Positions 7,396 through 41,876 of a stretch of 64,000 nucleotides of DNA are shown here, piece after piece. The notes beneath the pieces were generated by a model. The model did no database searches, had not been told where the DNA came from, and saw only the letters and a program-made list of their open reading frames with translations. The translations under genes were made by a program, and so were the position numbers. This DNA is from Chryseobacterium sp. Leaf404 (GTDB lineage: Bacteria > Bacteroidota > Bacteroidia > Flavobacteriales > Weeksellaceae), in contig NZ_LMQM01000010.1 in NCBI RefSeq assembly GCF_001424145.1, positions 801,606 to 865,605 on the forward strand, in the 5' to 3' direction. Position 1 is the stretch's first letter; each line of letters starts with the position of its first letter.

Positions 7396-8257
7396 TTAGA
7401 AGTTTGTTTAATGAAACTGCTGCCTCTCCTAATCTTGGTCCGAAACCTGAGATAAGGCCTCCATCCATGGCAATCACTTTTTTGTTTTTTCCGGCGTTGG
7501 TTTGTGCAACTCCAGGGGCTTTCAAAACACCTTCGATTCCTCCTGAACTTTCCAGTCCGCTTGAGAATAAGAACAATATGTCAGGATTTGCTTTTACTAC
7601 CGCTTCCGGAGTCAGTGGTTTGAAATCTTCAAAATCATTCACTGCATTTTCACCGCCTGCAATTCCGATCAATGCTGCCATCGGTGTGTTTCTACCTGAA
7701 ACCATCATCATATTTCCTCTTGCGTAGATGAAAAGAACTTTTGGTTTTTTAGTCAGCGTCTGAACCTGGGCTAAATCTGAATCAATTTTATCATTTAACT
7801 TCTGATAATCATTATTTCCGATGGCTTTTGCTACGTCAGCGATTAATTTTTTAGTTCCTTCAACGCTATATTCCTGCTTGAAAGTTTCCGTTTTGATACC
7901 TGAAGATTTAATTTTACCCATTAAATCAGGGTTGATGTCTTTGTCTGAAGCTAAAATCAAGGTTGGAGAAACAGCCATAATCGGCTCGATAGTAATTGAT
8001 CTTACGTGACCTAAATTTTCGGCAGAAGTTTTTAAACCTTCCGGATAAGTGCTGGTAACATCAGTTGCAACGATTTCTTTTTCGTGACCCAAAGCGGCAA
8101 CGATTTCTGTAATTCCGCCGTTTAAGGTTATCATTTTATGATTGGTTTTCGGAGCTTCTGCTTTCGCTTCGGTATTGTTTTCAGTTGATTTTGTATCTTC
8201 TTTTTTGCAAGAGTAAACTGCAATAAGCATGGATGCTGCTAATATGAATTTTTTCAT
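7379..8257 (-). CDS. hmuT: Heme/hemin ABC transporter substrate-binding lipoprotein
   Basis: A 292-residue periplasmic binding protein of the TroA/FepB fold with a lipoprotein signal (lipobox AVYSC, Cys17). Motifs include NGGITEIVAALG after the linker, VGVRS-like LGHVRSITIEPIMAVSPTLI, and ALIGIAGGENAVNDFEDFKPLTPEAVVKANPDILFLFSSG, as usual in hemin-binding HmuT. It delivers heme to HmuUV. In Bacteroidota this lipoprotein is probably tethered to the inner membrane. Confidence 0.93.
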   Translation of the reverse strand: MKKFILAASMLIAVYSCKKEDTKSTENNTEAKAEAPKTNHKMITLNGGITEIVAALGHEKEIVATDVTSTYPEGLKTSAENLGHVRSITIEPIMAVSPTLILASDKDINPDLMGKIKSSGIKTETFKQEYSVEGTKKLIADVAKAIGNNDYQKLNDKIDSDLAQVQTLTKKPKVLFIYARGNMMMVSGRNTPMAALIGIAGGENAVNDFEDFKPLTPEAVVKANPDILFLFSSGLESSGGIEGVLKAPGVAQTNAGKNKKVIAMDGGLISGFGPRLGEAAVSLNKLLIENAK

Positions 8258-8310
8258 TTTATCTTATTGTTAGATGTTTGATGAGGGGTGTTGGGTGTTT
8301 AAAAATTGAT

Positions 8311-8367
8311 ATTGAAAACAATTTTTCTTTTCCCCAACCCTAAAGGGGAGGAAAAATTGTTTTCAAT
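8311..8367. repeat. Long hairpin with CCCCAACCCTAAAGGGG core
   Basis: The arms ATTGAAAACAATTTTTC (8311-8327) and its exact complement (8351-8367) form a 17-bp perfect stem around a 23-bp core containing CCCCAACCCTAAAGGGG. The same core, with unrelated arms, appears at 38117-38174 and, in reverse, at 38177-38222. It lies between hmuY and hmuT and could slow RNA decay or attenuate the operon. Confidence 0.88.
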
Positions 8368-8370
8368 CTA

Positions 8371-9471
8371 CTACAAAGGTTTATATTCAAATGAAGGGAA
8401 ACCTCTTTCTCCCGCAAGGCCCTGAGCATCTGCTTTTTCTTTTGTGAGTCTTGTGAATCTGAGCTTAAAATAATATCCGTCTGAATCTTTAATCACGTAA
8501 AACCGGTCTCCATAAATCTGAGCTCCACTCGCGGTACCTCTCCAATTAGAACCAATAACTGTGTGATCGTTAAAGATAAATTTAGCCTGATCTATATCTG
8601 AAGCTTTGAAGCTGTTATAAGCGTCTACACCGGTTGCCGGAGCTGTTACCGTAACTTCGTATGCACCTGTTTTCCCAAGATTATTATTGTTTACGAAATC
8701 TGCATACGCATAACTGCCTGCTCCCGGTATAGTGTTTGTGAAAACTGTAAATGACAGATCCCACTTCTTTTTTTCAGGCTGAATAACGACTTCTTTATTG
8801 TTTTTAAGACTTACAAAACTGTAATTGTAAGCAGTATTTTTTGCCACTGTAAGCTCTTTGTGATTTGTTGCACCAAGCTCAGCATATTTAATCTTATATC
8901 CTTCTCCTGATCTGGTTATCTGAATTTTCATCCAACCTCTGGCATCACCGCTATACGTAACGGCACCCAATGCTACGGGACCATTGTAAATATCTTTTCC
9001 TAAATTAAGAAGATAGATTCCGTTGTCTGCATCCAGAGATTTCACTTCTTCGATGGCTGTGTAACCTGAAGGAAAATCACCTTTCACATCATCAATATAT
9101 GCTTCGTTAGCAGGATTAAAATTAGCTACCTGAACCTGAGTCTGCAGAGAGAGAACACTTGCAGAAGTAACAGCGTCAATATTGGTTGCATTTGGAATTT
9201 TAGCTGCTGCCATCATGATGGATGAATTTAAAACTACTTTGAACTGGCTGCCGGAATAAAATGCAAGATCCCAATCTGTTCTTTTGGTAGAGACAAATTT
9301 ATTTTCGCTCAAATCAAACCAAACCTGATTGGGTTGGGTGGCACCGCCTACGCTTACATTCACCAAATCTCCGTCAATTGGTGCTACAGCAACTATATCT
9401 TCGTTGTCATTGATGCAGGACTGCGAAACAGCGAGAGTTCCCACTAATAATCCAAAAAGTATTTTCTTCAT
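8371..9471 (-). CDS. HmuY-family heme-binding lipoprotein
   Basis: A 366-residue lipoprotein (lipobox VSQSC, Cys19). The N-terminal half shows the HmuY fold signature: VWFDLSENK, then TDWDLAFYSGSQFKVVLNSS near residues 66-85. A second related block KKWDLSFTVFT follows at about residue 235. HmuY proteins bind heme outside the cell and pass it to the cognate TonB receptor, which is encoded directly upstream with 10 bases between. The protein is longer than Porphyromonas HmuY, and the duplicated WDL block may reflect the two sheets of the fold. Confidence 0.9.
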   Translation of the reverse strand: MKKILFGLLVGTLAVSQSCINDNEDIVAVAPIDGDLVNVSVGGATQPNQVWFDLSENKFVSTKRTDWDLAFYSGSQFKVVLNSSIMMAAAKIPNATNIDAVTSASVLSLQTQVQVANFNPANEAYIDDVKGDFPSGYTAIEEVKSLDADNGIYLLNLGKDIYNGPVALGAVTYSGDARGWMKIQITRSGEGYKIKYAELGATNHKELTVAKNTAYNYSFVSLKNNKEVVIQPEKKKWDLSFTVFTNTIPGAGSYAYADFVNNNNLGKTGAYEVTVTAPATGVDAYNSFKASDIDQAKFIFNDHTVIGSNWRGTASGAQIYGDRFYVIKDSDGYYFKLRFTRLTKEKADAQGLAGERGFPSFEYKPL

Positions 9472-35216: not shown

Positions 35217-35266
35217 AAACCTTGTCAAGATTAATCTACAGACTGATTATAACCTTGACAAGGTTT
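35217..35266. repeat. Hairpin of the AACC-TTG-TCAAG family
   Basis: AAACCTTGTCAAG (35217-35229) pairs perfectly with CTTGACAAGGTTT (35254-35266) over a 24-nt loop. Related hairpins with compensating changes are at 37678 and 41795. Confidence 0.75.
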
Positions 35267-38084: not shown

Positions 38085-38116
38085 ATTTTTATGTTTAAAT
38101 TTATTTTCAGTTAGCC

Positions 38117-38174
38117 AAAATTTCATCAAAATTAATTACCCCAACCCTAAAGGGAGTAATTTTGATGAAATTTT
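38117..38174. repeat. CCCCAACCCTAAAGGG hairpin, second copy
   Basis: The arms AAAATTTCATCAAAATTA (38117-38134) and the exact complement (38157-38174) form an 18-bp perfect stem around the core ATTACCCCAACCCTAAAGGG. The arms share nothing with those at 8311. Confidence 0.9.
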
Positions 38175-38176
38175 TT

Positions 38177-38222
38177 AAGATATTTTTCCACCCTTTAGGG
38201 TTGGGGTAAAGAAAAATGTCTT
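38177..38222. repeat. CCCCAACCCTAAAGGG hairpin, third copy (core inverted)
   Basis: AAGATATTTTTC (38177-38188) pairs with GAAAAATGTCTT (38211-38222), with one mismatch (a G in place of A), around CCCTTTAGGGTTGGGGTAA, the reverse complement of the core at 38135. It is 2 bases from the second copy, so two opposite elements sit back to back. Confidence 0.85.
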
Positions 38223-38286
38223 GAAAATTTGTTAAAGATTTTTTTGACAGTCTTAACAAGATTTATTCCAATAGTCTGCTTTAATT

Positions 38287-39437: not shown

Positions 39438-40745
39438 ATGGAATTAGAAGCTATTTACAAAAAACTGCAGATTCAGGATATGAATCAGATGCAGAAATCT
39501 ACATATAAAACTACCGAAAACAATACAGATGTTGTTTTACTTTCGCCTACCGGTTCGGGGAAAACGCTTGCTTTTTTGTTTCCGGTTCTTAGAAATTTGA
39601 AGAAAGAAGCTACGGGAATTCAGGCTGTCATTCTTGTTCCGTCCAGAGAACTGGCTTTGCAGATTGAGCAGGTTTTCAAATCGATGGGTACCGATTTTAA
39701 GGTGACGGTTTGCTACGGCGGTCACGATAAAAAGATTGAAATGAATAATCTAAAAGAAGCTCCTGCTGTATTAATAGGAACTCCCGGTAGAGTTGCATAT
39801 CATCTTAAAAATAAAAACATTGAGGTAAAAACCATTAGAAATCTGGTTTTAGATGAGTTCGATAAAGCTTTGGAATTAGGCTTTCATGAAGATATGGAAT
39901 ACATTATCGAAAACATGTACAATCTTTACCAAAGAATCCTGACTTCAGCAACCTCAATGGATGAAATTCCGAAGTTTACAGGTTTAAAAGATGAAAAAAT
40001 CGTTGATTTCTTAAAATTAGGAGAAAATAAACCTGATATTCAGCTGAGAAAAGTGATGACGCTTTCCGAGGAAAAACTCGAAACTTTATTTCATTTGATC
40101 TGTAAAATCGGAAATAAAAGAACGCTGATTTTCTGTAACCACAGAGAAACCGTTGACCGTATTGCCGATCTGCTTTTGGATAAAGGAATCGCCAGAGAAA
40201 CTTTCCACGGGGGTATGGAACAGGACGAAAGAGAGCGCGCTTTGCTGAAATTCAGAAATGATACGGCGAGAGTTTTAATCACAACCGATTTGGCTGCACG
40301 AGGTTTAGACGTTCCTGAAGTTGAATCAATTGTTCATTACCAGTTACCGACCACAGAAGACGCTTTTATTCACAGAAACGGCCGTACTGCGAGAATGAAT
40401 GCCAAAGGTTTTGCCTATTTGGTGATAACAGAAGATGAAAAATTCCCTTTCATCAGAAAAGATACGCCTGAAGAATCTGTAAAAGAATTTTCTAAAGTTC
40501 CTGCCAATCCGCCATTTCAGACGATATACATCAGCGCCGGAAAAAAAGATAAAGTAAACAAGGTAGATATCGTAGGATATTTACTAAAAAAAGGCGAACT
40601 GCAGAAAGAAGATTTAGGTCTTATTGAAGTGAAAGACACAACGTCTTATGTTGCAGTTTCCAGAACGAAAGTGAGAGATTTGCTTAAAAAATTAAGCACT
40701 GAAAAACTGAAAGGTAAGAAAGTGAAAATGGAGGTGGCTTACTAG
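39438..40745 (+). CDS. DEAD-box-type RNA helicase (DEFD variant)
   Basis: A 435-residue helicase with Q-motif region MNQMQKSTY, motif I SPTGSGKT, Ia PSRELALQ, TPGR, motif II VLDEFDKA, motif III SAT, and RGLDVPEVESIVHYQLP and HRNGRTAR in domain 2. Motif II reads DEFD instead of DEAD. A short C-terminal extension after residue 350 (VDIVGYLLKKGELQKEDLGLIEVKDTTSYVAVSR) resembles the DbpA RNA-binding domain. It probably unwinds rRNA or mRNA structures. Confidence 0.93.
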   Translation: MELEAIYKKLQIQDMNQMQKSTYKTTENNTDVVLLSPTGSGKTLAFLFPVLRNLKKEATGIQAVILVPSRELALQIEQVFKSMGTDFKVTVCYGGHDKKIEMNNLKEAPAVLIGTPGRVAYHLKNKNIEVKTIRNLVLDEFDKALELGFHEDMEYIIENMYNLYQRILTSATSMDEIPKFTGLKDEKIVDFLKLGENKPDIQLRKVMTLSEEKLETLFHLICKIGNKRTLIFCNHRETVDRIADLLLDKGIARETFHGGMEQDERERALLKFRNDTARVLITTDLAARGLDVPEVESIVHYQLPTTEDAFIHRNGRTARMNAKGFAYLVITEDEKFPFIRKDTPEESVKEFSKVPANPPFQTIYISAGKKDKVNKVDIVGYLLKKGELQKEDLGLIEVKDTTSYVAVSRTKVRDLLKKLSTEKLKGKKVKMEVAY

Positions 40746-40753
40746 GTTTAGTC

Positions 40754-40804
40754 TAAGGTTAAGGCTGATTAAAAGAACCTTAACCTTAACCTTAACCTTA
40801 ACCT
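40754..40804. repeat. AACCTT hexamer repeat forming a terminator-like hairpin
   Basis: Almost five tandem AACCTT units (40776-40804) pair with TAAGGTTAAGG at 40754-40764. The array runs up to the stop codon of the SMP-30 gene (40803-40805) and probably ends transcription from both converging genes. Confidence 0.8.
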
Positions 40805-41693
40805 ATTTCATAGCAGATGTTTTTGTAGGCAGAGTATAAACCGATTTTGAAGCTGTAATAAACAGAATATTATTTTTTTCTCCGCCAAAAGTTACGTTCC
40901 CTGTCCAATCTTCAGGAATTTTGATGTGGTGAACTTTTTCTCCCTTGTTATTAAAAACCGTAACGCCATCACCGGTCAGATATAAATTCCCTTGTTTGTC
41001 TAAAGTCATTCCGTCTGAACCTATGTCGCAGAATAATTTCTTTTCAGACAATTTTCCGTCTCCTAAAATATCGTAAACATAGATTTTTCCGGCATCAATA
41101 TCTGAGACGTAAAGTTTCTTCAATTTGACACTTCCAATAATCCCATTGGGTTGTACATAAGTTTCCAGCTTAGAAATTTTTCCGCTTTTATTTCTGTAAT
41201 ATAAATTTTTCTCAGGAATTTCGACTTTGAAGTTTTCCCAGTAATCTCTTTTGTACAAAGGATCTGTAAAATAAATTCCTCCATTTCCATCCAGCCAGAG
41301 ATCGTTTGGACCGTTTAATCGCTTTCCTTCAAAACCTCTGGATAAAACTTGAACAGATTTATCTTTTTTGATTTCCCAGATTTCACCTTCGTTATCTGAA
41401 CAGGTAATTAAATTGTCGTTCTCATCAAAATAAGTTCCGTTGGCACGACCTGTTTTGTCTAAAAAGAGTTCGATTTTGTCTGTTTTCCAGTTCCATACAA
41501 AAATTTTGTCGTTAGGCTGATCCGTGAAATAGACATTTCCTGATTTATCGGCTGCGGGACCTTCGGTGAATTTAAACTGATCTGAAATTAATTTCGGTTC
41601 GGTGTTTTCAAACATAGCATTGTAATTTGTTGATTTGCAACTGAGAAATGCTAAAAACAAACCAATCAAGGCCGCTTTCATTATATTTTTCAT
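40803..41693 (-). CDS. SMP-30/gluconolactonase-family lipoprotein
   Basis: A 296-residue lipoprotein (KAALIGLFLAFLSC) with a six-bladed propeller of the SMP-30 family: FTEGPAADKSGNVYFTDQPNDKI, then LNGPNDLWLDGNGGIYFTDP and LYVSDIDAGKIYVYD. The Glu in TEGP, the Asn in NGPND and the Asp in YVSD correspond to the metal-binding residues. Members hydrolyse sugar lactones such as gluconolactone. The lipoprotein signal places it in the envelope. Confidence 0.9.
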   Translation of the reverse strand: MKNIMKAALIGLFLAFLSCKSTNYNAMFENTEPKLISDQFKFTEGPAADKSGNVYFTDQPNDKIFVWNWKTDKIELFLDKTGRANGTYFDENDNLITCSDNEGEIWEIKKDKSVQVLSRGFEGKRLNGPNDLWLDGNGGIYFTDPLYKRDYWENFKVEIPEKNLYYRNKSGKISKLETYVQPNGIIGSVKLKKLYVSDIDAGKIYVYDILGDGKLSEKKLFCDIGSDGMTLDKQGNLYLTGDGVTVFNNKGEKVHHIKIPEDWTGNVTFGGEKNNILFITASKSVYTLPTKTSAMK

Positions 41694-41756: not shown

Positions 41757-41794
41757 AAAATTCTGATTCAGGCAAAAGAAGTGTTTCCCTTGAA

Positions 41795-41840
41795 AACTTT
41801 GTCAAAGTTATCAGCATCATGCAGAAACTTTGACAAAGTT
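41795..41840. repeat. Hairpin AACTTTGTCAAAGTT in the MerR gene leader
   Basis: Two 15-bp arms, AACTTTGTCAAAGTT and its complement AACTTTGACAAAGTT, flank a 16-base loop. Each arm is itself nearly palindromic. It belongs to the same family as the hairpins at 35217 and 37678. Confidence 0.78.
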
Positions 41841-41876
41841 GACAACGGCAGGAGCTCAAAAATCAAAATTAAGTTA

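Follow-up and report, generated by a model that had tools for sequence, protein, structure and literature searches.

The window, that is, the whole stretch of 64,000 nucleotides that was analysed, corresponds to C10:801606-865605 of the Chryseobacterium genome G000 (3.94 Mb in 17 contigs), referred to below as the own genome. It contains three exact copies of a 16-base core, each enclosed in a hairpin. No fourth match was present in the 64-kb window at up to three mismatches. Shuffled windows contained 0.22 cores on average and none of 100 reached three, which bears out the first-pass annotation in its claim that one core is common to three elements. The features are located as follows.

8296..8310, plus strand: TGTTTAAAAATTGAT, by eye like the interior of the terminal repeat in the longer two-hairpin elements of the genome
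8311..8367, no strand: single hairpin around the core, with perfect arms of 17 bp (8311-8327 and 8351-8367)
8332..8347, plus strand: core CCCCAACCCTAAAGGG, exact match
38108..38256, no strand: apparent full extent of the two-hairpin element; its ends (38108-38120 and about 38239-38256) are degenerate and can be aligned with GAGCCTGTTTAAA ... TTTAAACAGGCTC in other copies
38117..38174, no strand: hairpin of stem type B (AAAATTTCATCAAAATTA), with perfect arms of 18 bp (38117-38134 and 38157-38174)
38139..38154, plus strand: core CCCCAACCCTAAAGGG, exact match
about 38168..38230, no strand: hairpin of stem type A (AAATTTTCAAG.CATTTTTC), with arms of about 20 bp that contain three mismatches (paired by hand)
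38191..38206, minus strand: core CCCCAACCCTAAAGGG, exact match, inverted relative to the first core

Hairpins in the window

The hairpins of the window are real. When folded as single-stranded DNA, the stretch 8311-8367 reached a z of -6.1 and 38117-38174 a z of -6.7, and in neither case was any of 200 shuffles equally stable. The third hairpin (38168-38230) folds weakly (z = -1.9; 10 of 200 shuffles equally stable), and it shares part of its left arm with the right arm of the 38117-38174 hairpin. The perfect arms of 17 and 18 bp had been reported correctly and pair over their full length. The third element had been placed at 38177-38222 with arms of 12 bp and one mismatch; it actually extends over about 38168-38230, with arms of about 20 bp and three mismatches. 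As read from aligned copies, the consensus layout is stem - TTTD - CCCCRACCCTAAAGGG - WG - stem, the stems being AT-rich.

The end of the single hairpin lies 3 nt away from the stop codon of a minus-strand open reading frame (8371-9471). The stretch TGTTTAAAAATTGAT directly before it, at 8296-8310, suggests that this hairpin may be a truncated copy of a longer element. Other repeats are also present in the window. An inverted repeat built of CCTTAA units (TAGGTTTAGTCTAAGGTTAAGG ... CCTTAACCTTAACCTTAACCTA) lies at 40743-40805, and two long inverted repeats whose halves are alike (CCTTGTCAAG, CTTTGTCAAAGTT), possibly another repeat family, lie at 35217-35266 and 41787-41848.

A two-hairpin element with MITE-like ends

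The own genome contains eight exact cores in total. A second inverted pair of cores occurs at G000:C14:184426/184478, 52 bp apart as in the window and on the same two stem types. As this inverted pair has the same spacing and stem types, the second and third elements are the halves of one two-hairpin element. They had been described as two adjacent inverted copies, of which the inversion of the cores holds and the count of two copies does not. A search of the own genome with the C14 element returned 81 matching pieces, many of them half copies or matches on the reverse strand. In the better matches, a hairpin of stem A (AAATTTTCAAG.CATTTTTC) and one of stem B (AAATTTCATCAAAATTAA) are inverted relative to each other; in the window element the order is B, then A. 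In some copies (L001), a TGTCGTCCTGAGCTTGTCGAAGGA-like stretch replaces the inner loop.

Several copies look like MITEs, since they are flanked by GAGCCTGTTTAAA and its inverse at a distance of 105-183 bp. In type, these ends look IS5-like. With at most one mismatch, GAGCCTGTTTAAA is found 17 times in forward and 20 times in reverse orientation in the own genome, against 1 + 1 for a reversed control, and by their coordinates sixteen of these matches form eight inverted pairs, 105-183 bp apart. Such terminal inverted repeats bound a number of own-genome copies. The window copy, whose ends are degenerate, aligns end to end with copies lying between GAGCCTGTTTAAA and its inverse. Some elements with these ends have the two hairpins inside, and others have the same ends around a different interior. 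As candidates for a short target duplication, the flanks of the copies by eye read TAA/TAA in some and TTA/TAA in others; the alignment of the 38117 element, with its degenerate ends, gave neither exact boundaries nor a duplication. With its degenerate terminal repeats of the DNA-transposon type, the 38-kb element may have moved by a different transposase, and from these repeats it seems that a DNA transposon also carried some of the hairpin copies.

The whole family could also consist of ordinary MITEs, with an IS5-like transposase acting on the GAGCCTGTTTAAA ends, the hairpins serving as passengers or internal terminators and the neighbourhood of DUF559 genes described below being incidental. 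This explanation draws on the excess of ends over the control, on their eight inverted pairs, on the full-length alignment of the window element with end-bearing copies, and on the copies that hold both hairpins between such ends, although the same ends also enclose another interior. It would account for the terminal inverted repeats and for the length of 105-183 bp of a number of own-genome copies, in which they resemble MITEs with IS5-like ends. We nevertheless consider it rather unlikely, since core hairpins in other genera and beside DUF559 genes are found on quite different stems, the core follows the DUF559 subfamily, and the own-genome listing, judged by coordinates only, holds no inverted pair of ends spaced for a transposase gene.

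A DUF559 gene beside the core in the genus

The distribution of the core is sporadic. With A or G allowed at position five, it was found in 20 of 146 genus genomes and in 5 of the 395 genomes of a phylum-wide sample, the own genome being counted in both; the highest number in a single genus genome was 24 copies (among the matches listed).

In genome G067, a small gene is preceded by a tandem array of alternating hairpins that begins 35 bp from its start codon, and the layout in G115 is the same. At four loci of these two genomes (L341, L347, L353, L354), units of two hairpins, each about 125-170 bp long or longer, stand head to tail, with about nine repeats in L341. DUF559 is a little-studied family of DNA-cutting enzymes, and the product of the own genome at the locus of the small gene belongs to it (PF04480, E 3e-37). 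This protein of 135 aa also matches in sequence PDB 3hrl, solved as an 'Endonuclease-Like Protein' (E 2e-18).

Sixteen genus genomes were chosen for a search of this stand-alone DUF559 (Vsr-like nuclease) subfamily, which is present in 6 of the 11 core-bearing genomes and in none of the 5 core-less ones. In all six genomes with the subfamily, one or more exact cores lie upstream of the DUF559 gene and none downstream; since they all share one locus, they count as a single event for statistics. In a seventh genus genome, G024, a DUF559-like open reading frame adjoins the cores. The other five of the 11 core-bearing genomes searched (G104, G140, G142, G041, G057) are without that subfamily. Among the matches listed, the genomes with the gene have 13, 21, 7, 23, 24 and 22 core copies and those without it 13, 6, 4, 4 and 4 (Mann-Whitney p 0.016, with the six gene loci sharing one locus and so counting as one event).

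None of the 10 loci of a second DUF559 subfamily in the genus has a core nearby. A pairing of this subfamily with a CGTC-like repeat was considered and rejected, the repeat being present in only one of the nine loci parsed (of 10) and absent in the other eight. At G000:C11:262709-263143 (L236, L388), the neighbour of a gene of the second subfamily is an element with terminal repeats, in which two TTCGACAAGCTCAGAGTGACA-like palindromes form an inverted pair.

DUF559 genes and palindromes beyond the genus

Four non-genus genomes of the 395-genome phylum sample have the exact core, namely G299, G508, G199 and G172, the first three of which belong to the same order. All three same-order genomes were searched for DUF559, and each has it beside the core, at these positions.

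G299:C18:44040: DUF559 among five cores
G508:C19:2029: DUF559 next to the core at 1974
G199:C3:8196: DUF559 next to the core at 8084

For a wider comparison, 54 stand-alone DUF559 genes were taken from the same-order sample and from 28 genomes chosen for having cores; left out of this set were at least the stand-alone matches of G362:C6 and G476:C51 and many from the 28 core-bearing genomes. Flanks were scanned over 700 bp, and five loci (L441, L447, L452, L458, L460) over their whole length. The presence of a relaxed core varies with the identity to the own DUF559: it lies nearby in 11 of 12 genes at 52% identity or above, in 4 of 16 at 45-51% and in 3 of 26 below 45%. Divided at 52%, a cut-off set post hoc, the contrast is 11/12 against 7/42 (Fisher 3e-6), and in the order sample alone, with the own gene excluded, 6/7 against 3/26 (Fisher 5e-4). 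Relaxed cores were absent from 611 kb lying more than 1 kb from exact cores. They stand on both sides of the DUF559 gene at L395, L397 and L398 only.

The 42 genes below 52% identity include 28 with another GC-rich palindrome and 7 with neither. Over the whole set, non-core GC hairpins occur in 32 of 54 DUF559 flanks; in two sets of control stretches, 5 of 60 and 10 of 96 have them. In one sampled class, hairpins of the CCCCTCTCC type lie, by eye, beside a number of the DUF559 genes in the 23 loci (of 30) that were read. An exact core near a DUF559 match was found in only 7 of the 28 core-bearing genomes, among 30 loci examined.

DUF559 inserted in frame in host genes

A DUF559 domain inside a long open frame was found at 37 loci, of which 36 were parsed. 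GC-rich hairpins stand on both sides of the domain at 28 of them, on one side at 2 and on neither at 6; the corresponding values for shuffled flanks, in which base composition only was kept, are 0.05, 3.5 and 32.45. Pfam was applied to 34 of the 36 proteins (5 at E<=0.001 and 29 at 1e-15), with L493 and L497 left out and L401 judged by eye. The hosts of these 34 are listed below.

Leucyl-tRNA synthetase (LeuRS): 14, at two positions
Cobalamin methionine synthase (MetH): 8, at two positions
RecG: 4
Type I restriction R subunit (HsdR): 3
UvrD-type helicase: 1
Another class I tRNA synthetase: 1
Type ISP restriction-modification protein: 1
Eco57I-type restriction-modification protein: 1
Histidinol dehydrogenase: 1, with DUF559 as a tail

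In the last of these (L467), DUF559 is fused behind a complete histidinol dehydrogenase and lies between two GC hairpins. The position of the domain in LeuRS differs between L481 and L408/L414/L418, and that in MetH between L471/L473 and L404/L406. These two different positions in each gene suggest that DUF559 entered both repeatedly and independently. No Hint or splicing domain of the kind found in inteins was detected in five host proteins (Pfam, E<=0.001), which showed only host domains, DUF559 and other nuclease families.

Alleles without the insertion were sought for LeuRS. Among 143 matching genus genomes, only two are contiguous across the insertion (G045, the source of the query, and G060), and the other 141 give two matches. 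In ten of these 141 the junction was read: nine run GAQV.F, about eight residues and VFTTRP, and L512 has a short unrelated insert. The in-frame insertion is thus present in some LeuRS alleles and absent from others at one site. In G045 it is bordered by CTCACCCCAACCCTCTCCAAAGGAGAGGGAG on the left and CCCTCTCCTCGGGAGAGGG on the right, and a few host codons are replaced. The palindromes round the in-frame DUF559 domains have CCCCAACCC in common with the core and lack the whole core; they are related to it in plan and are not copies of it. No core was found near the in-frame DUF559 of G060 (L384) or near those from the 28 core-bearing genomes.

Alternatively, the stem-loops might be kept by selection as RNA or DNA signals, such as terminators, mRNA 3' ends or elements controlling DUF559, a protein reading the loop and the stem needing only to pair. 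A fixed loop on stems that change in pairs would be expected of such signals, and the end of the 8311-8367 hairpin 3 nt from a stop codon and the hairpins preceding DUF559 genes fit them as well. Nevertheless, such signals seem an unlikely explanation: no Rfam family matches the hairpins at the gathering score, copies form tandem arrays and are sporadic among relatives, and the related palindromes round DUF559 sit within long reading frames.

Variation and inheritance of the stems

Among the matches listed, 92 stretches from 17 genomes, together with the own-genome loci, yielded 143 distinct copies, of which 142 could be used for counting. Scored over the ten stem bases closest to the core, an arm pairs at 8.97 of 10 positions with its own partner and at 6.18 with the partner arm of a random copy, a value that becomes 5.83 where the left stems differ by four or more; the copies are related by descent, so these counts are not independent trials. 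The 142 copies have 53 distinct stem 8-mers, taken at a fixed spacer, so that a shift of register counts as a new stem. The proposal of the first-pass annotation that arms vary and still match their own partners is thus upheld. Its statement that the arms bear no resemblance to one another is true among the three window stems only, as the stem types of the second and third elements recur in other copies.

Arms conserved between copies, which the first-pass annotation had named as grounds for refuting its view, are therefore found for two of the three window stems (those of the second and third elements), which belong to repeated families. Among 49 genus copies of stem family B, there are 49 one-sided, 22 two-sided matching and 4 two-sided non-matching changes. 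Family A (31 genus copies) has 77, 23 and 15, respectively, with a left and a right consensus that differ at two places and so blur the two-sided counts. The persistence of one-sided changes in both families indicates that the arms are not continually corrected.

In the genome collection, the core was found in at least 112 stretches, and by our own reckoning about 120 would be expected by chance for a 16-mer in 257 billion bases. Raw core counts were therefore rejected as a sign of enrichment, and true copies are told from chance cores by the complementarity of their flanks. Among the matches listed, 69 of 130 copies (57 of 110 loci) have a flank score of 8 or more, compared with 2.7% for swapped flanks, and 48 of 107 copies outside Chryseobacterium-titled records have complementary flanks.

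Orthologous sites had been proposed as a means of seeing which arm pre-existed. For the site at 38117, 25 of 30 loci were parsed, the own locus included. The element with both stems is common to G067 and G093. Of the other 22 relatives parsed, 19 have a shorter spacer (30-120 bp) and no element, and G060, G104 and G115 have a longer spacer of other sequence. In these three (L184, L187, L188), a spacer stretch CTCGGGCGGAA... or its reverse was noticed, apparently inverted between species (by eye). Since the element occurs with its stems in G067 and G093 and is absent in the other relatives, its stems were inherited with it and not taken from the target, and a rebuilding of stems from the target at each insertion was rejected for the 38117 element. 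At the site of 8311, G115 and G104 have a similar, imperfect hairpin and the closest relative, G060, has none.

The mechanism first proposed, in which template switching during insertion of the core makes one arm a copy of the other or of the target, agrees with arms that vary and match their partner and with the 22 matched two-sided changes in one stem family, but is very improbable, because stems recur in many copies and are common to orthologous ones, the site is by eye free of any such arm in the relatives that do not have the 38117 element, and one-sided changes persist.

A proposed pair of nuclease and palindrome

The explanation that we prefer, and regard as moderately probable, is that the dispersed palindromic repeat is the partner of a DUF559 subfamily, which probably recognises its tip, cuts and spreads copies by repair. 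The repeat itself, the covariation of its stems, the subfamily-specific neighbourhood and the in-frame insertions with empty alleles are established by the counts above. From these we infer the recognition of the tip, the cutting, the copying by repair and the movement of miniature copies by DUF559. The nuclease would recognise the palindromic tip (about TTTD-CCCCRACCCTAAAGGG-WG), which would stay fixed while the AT-rich stem was free to change as long as pairing held. A fixed tip on a free stem is to be expected of an enzyme that reads hairpin tips, whether the hairpin is extruded or single-stranded. It would nick or cut DNA there or at the target, and break-and-copy repair would carry the repeat to new places, with or without the DUF559 gene, the gene-less copies being the miniature hairpins of the window. 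The proteins of one DUF559 subfamily would read a single type of palindrome. Across the wider group, DUF559 together with its flanking palindromes has entered reading frames in frame.

Several observations count for this pair. A core adjoins the gene in 6/6 genus genomes with the subfamily and in 3/3 same-order genomes, and it tracks the subfamily (11/12 against 7/42; 0/10 for the second genus subfamily). Non-core GC hairpins are frequent in DUF559 flanks (32/54 against 5/60 and 10/96 in controls), 28/36 in-frame copies are bracketed by GC hairpins, and LeuRS alleles without the insertion exist. The role of DUF559 as the spreader of the hairpins is thus suggested by repeats that often adjoin DUF559 genes in a number of Bacteroidota genomes. 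Counting against the pair are the 5/11 core-bearing genus genomes without the subfamily, the exact core near DUF559 in only 7/28 core-bearing genomes (30 loci examined), and the location of cores upstream only at the six genus loci, which could possibly reflect a regulatory role at that shared locus. The in-frame palindromes have CCCCAACCC and not the whole core, 6/36 are without a GC hairpin, and no core lies near the in-frame DUF559 of G060 or of the 28 core-bearing genomes. The terminal repeats at 38 kb seem to point to another transposase. In PMC12907096, a DUF559 protein of Caulobacter figures as a Vsr-like repair enzyme, so DUF559 need not be a mobility protein.

More tentatively, and with doubt prevailing, DUF559 and its bordering palindromes could be imagined as widespread mobile elements of the Bacteroidota that enter genes in frame and shed hairpins without the gene by the dozen. 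The enzyme would read only the tip, the stem could be any self-complementary sequence, possibly made by snap-back synthesis at insertion, and CGTC-type REPs might be moved by these same enzymes.

With DUF559 beside its own palindrome type, subfamily by subfamily, a candidate enzyme is available for purification and test. Insertions of the in-frame type, as in the genes for aminoacyl-tRNA synthetase, MetH, RecG and restriction proteins, would illustrate how such elements get into important genes and leave them working, and would explain why unrelated proteins contain DUF559 domains.

Relation to known systems

Among the matches listed, the titles and abstract openings of open-licence literature did not describe DUF559 genes bordered by palindromic repeats, and a search by sequence strings gave no relevant title. 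A DUF559 gene has been assigned to the EDxHD homing family in the section on inteins of PMC9403480, and I-Bth0305I, a member of that family, is covered in the review PMC3943268. According to the parts of these sources consulted, such nucleases drive their own gene into alleles lacking it, and the cases described there are linked to phages, group I introns or inteins. The DUF559 domain and the LeuRS alleles with and without insertion (2/143, in the in-frame form only) are points of likeness. In contrast to the EDxHD cases, the gene is here bracketed by palindromic repeats, small gene-less relatives exist, and the five hosts scanned have no splicing domain. Rickettsia palindromic elements, compared here by description, likewise lie in frame in many protein genes; the summary consulted in PMC10969869 gives them about 150 bp and does not mention a nuclease gene.

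Further parallels are the REP systems. Both GTAG and CGTC palindromes are described in PMC3733652, where, in the portion consulted, GTAG-REPs (REPtrons, with RAYT) appear as dispersed palindromes, often in inverted pairs, that border the gene of a cognate DNA enzyme, and CGTC repeats appear without a dedicated transposase. The present system resembles the former in this arrangement. It differs in that the enzyme found beside the palindromes is DUF559, a Vsr-like nuclease, in place of an HUH tyrosine transposase, in that the window hairpins are without GTAG next to their stems, and in that the tip is conserved and the stem free. According to the same portion of PMC3733652, CGTC-REPs are short palindromes found in five phyla, including Bacteroidetes, mostly as head-to-head dimers. 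The window hairpins do not conform to their CGTC (TGTC/CCTC) tag, stem of 8-9 bp and loop of 4-5 nt. Only some other copies, e.g., L001, have TGTCGTCCTGAGCTTGTCGAAGGA in the place of the inner loop, which by eye is CGTC-like.
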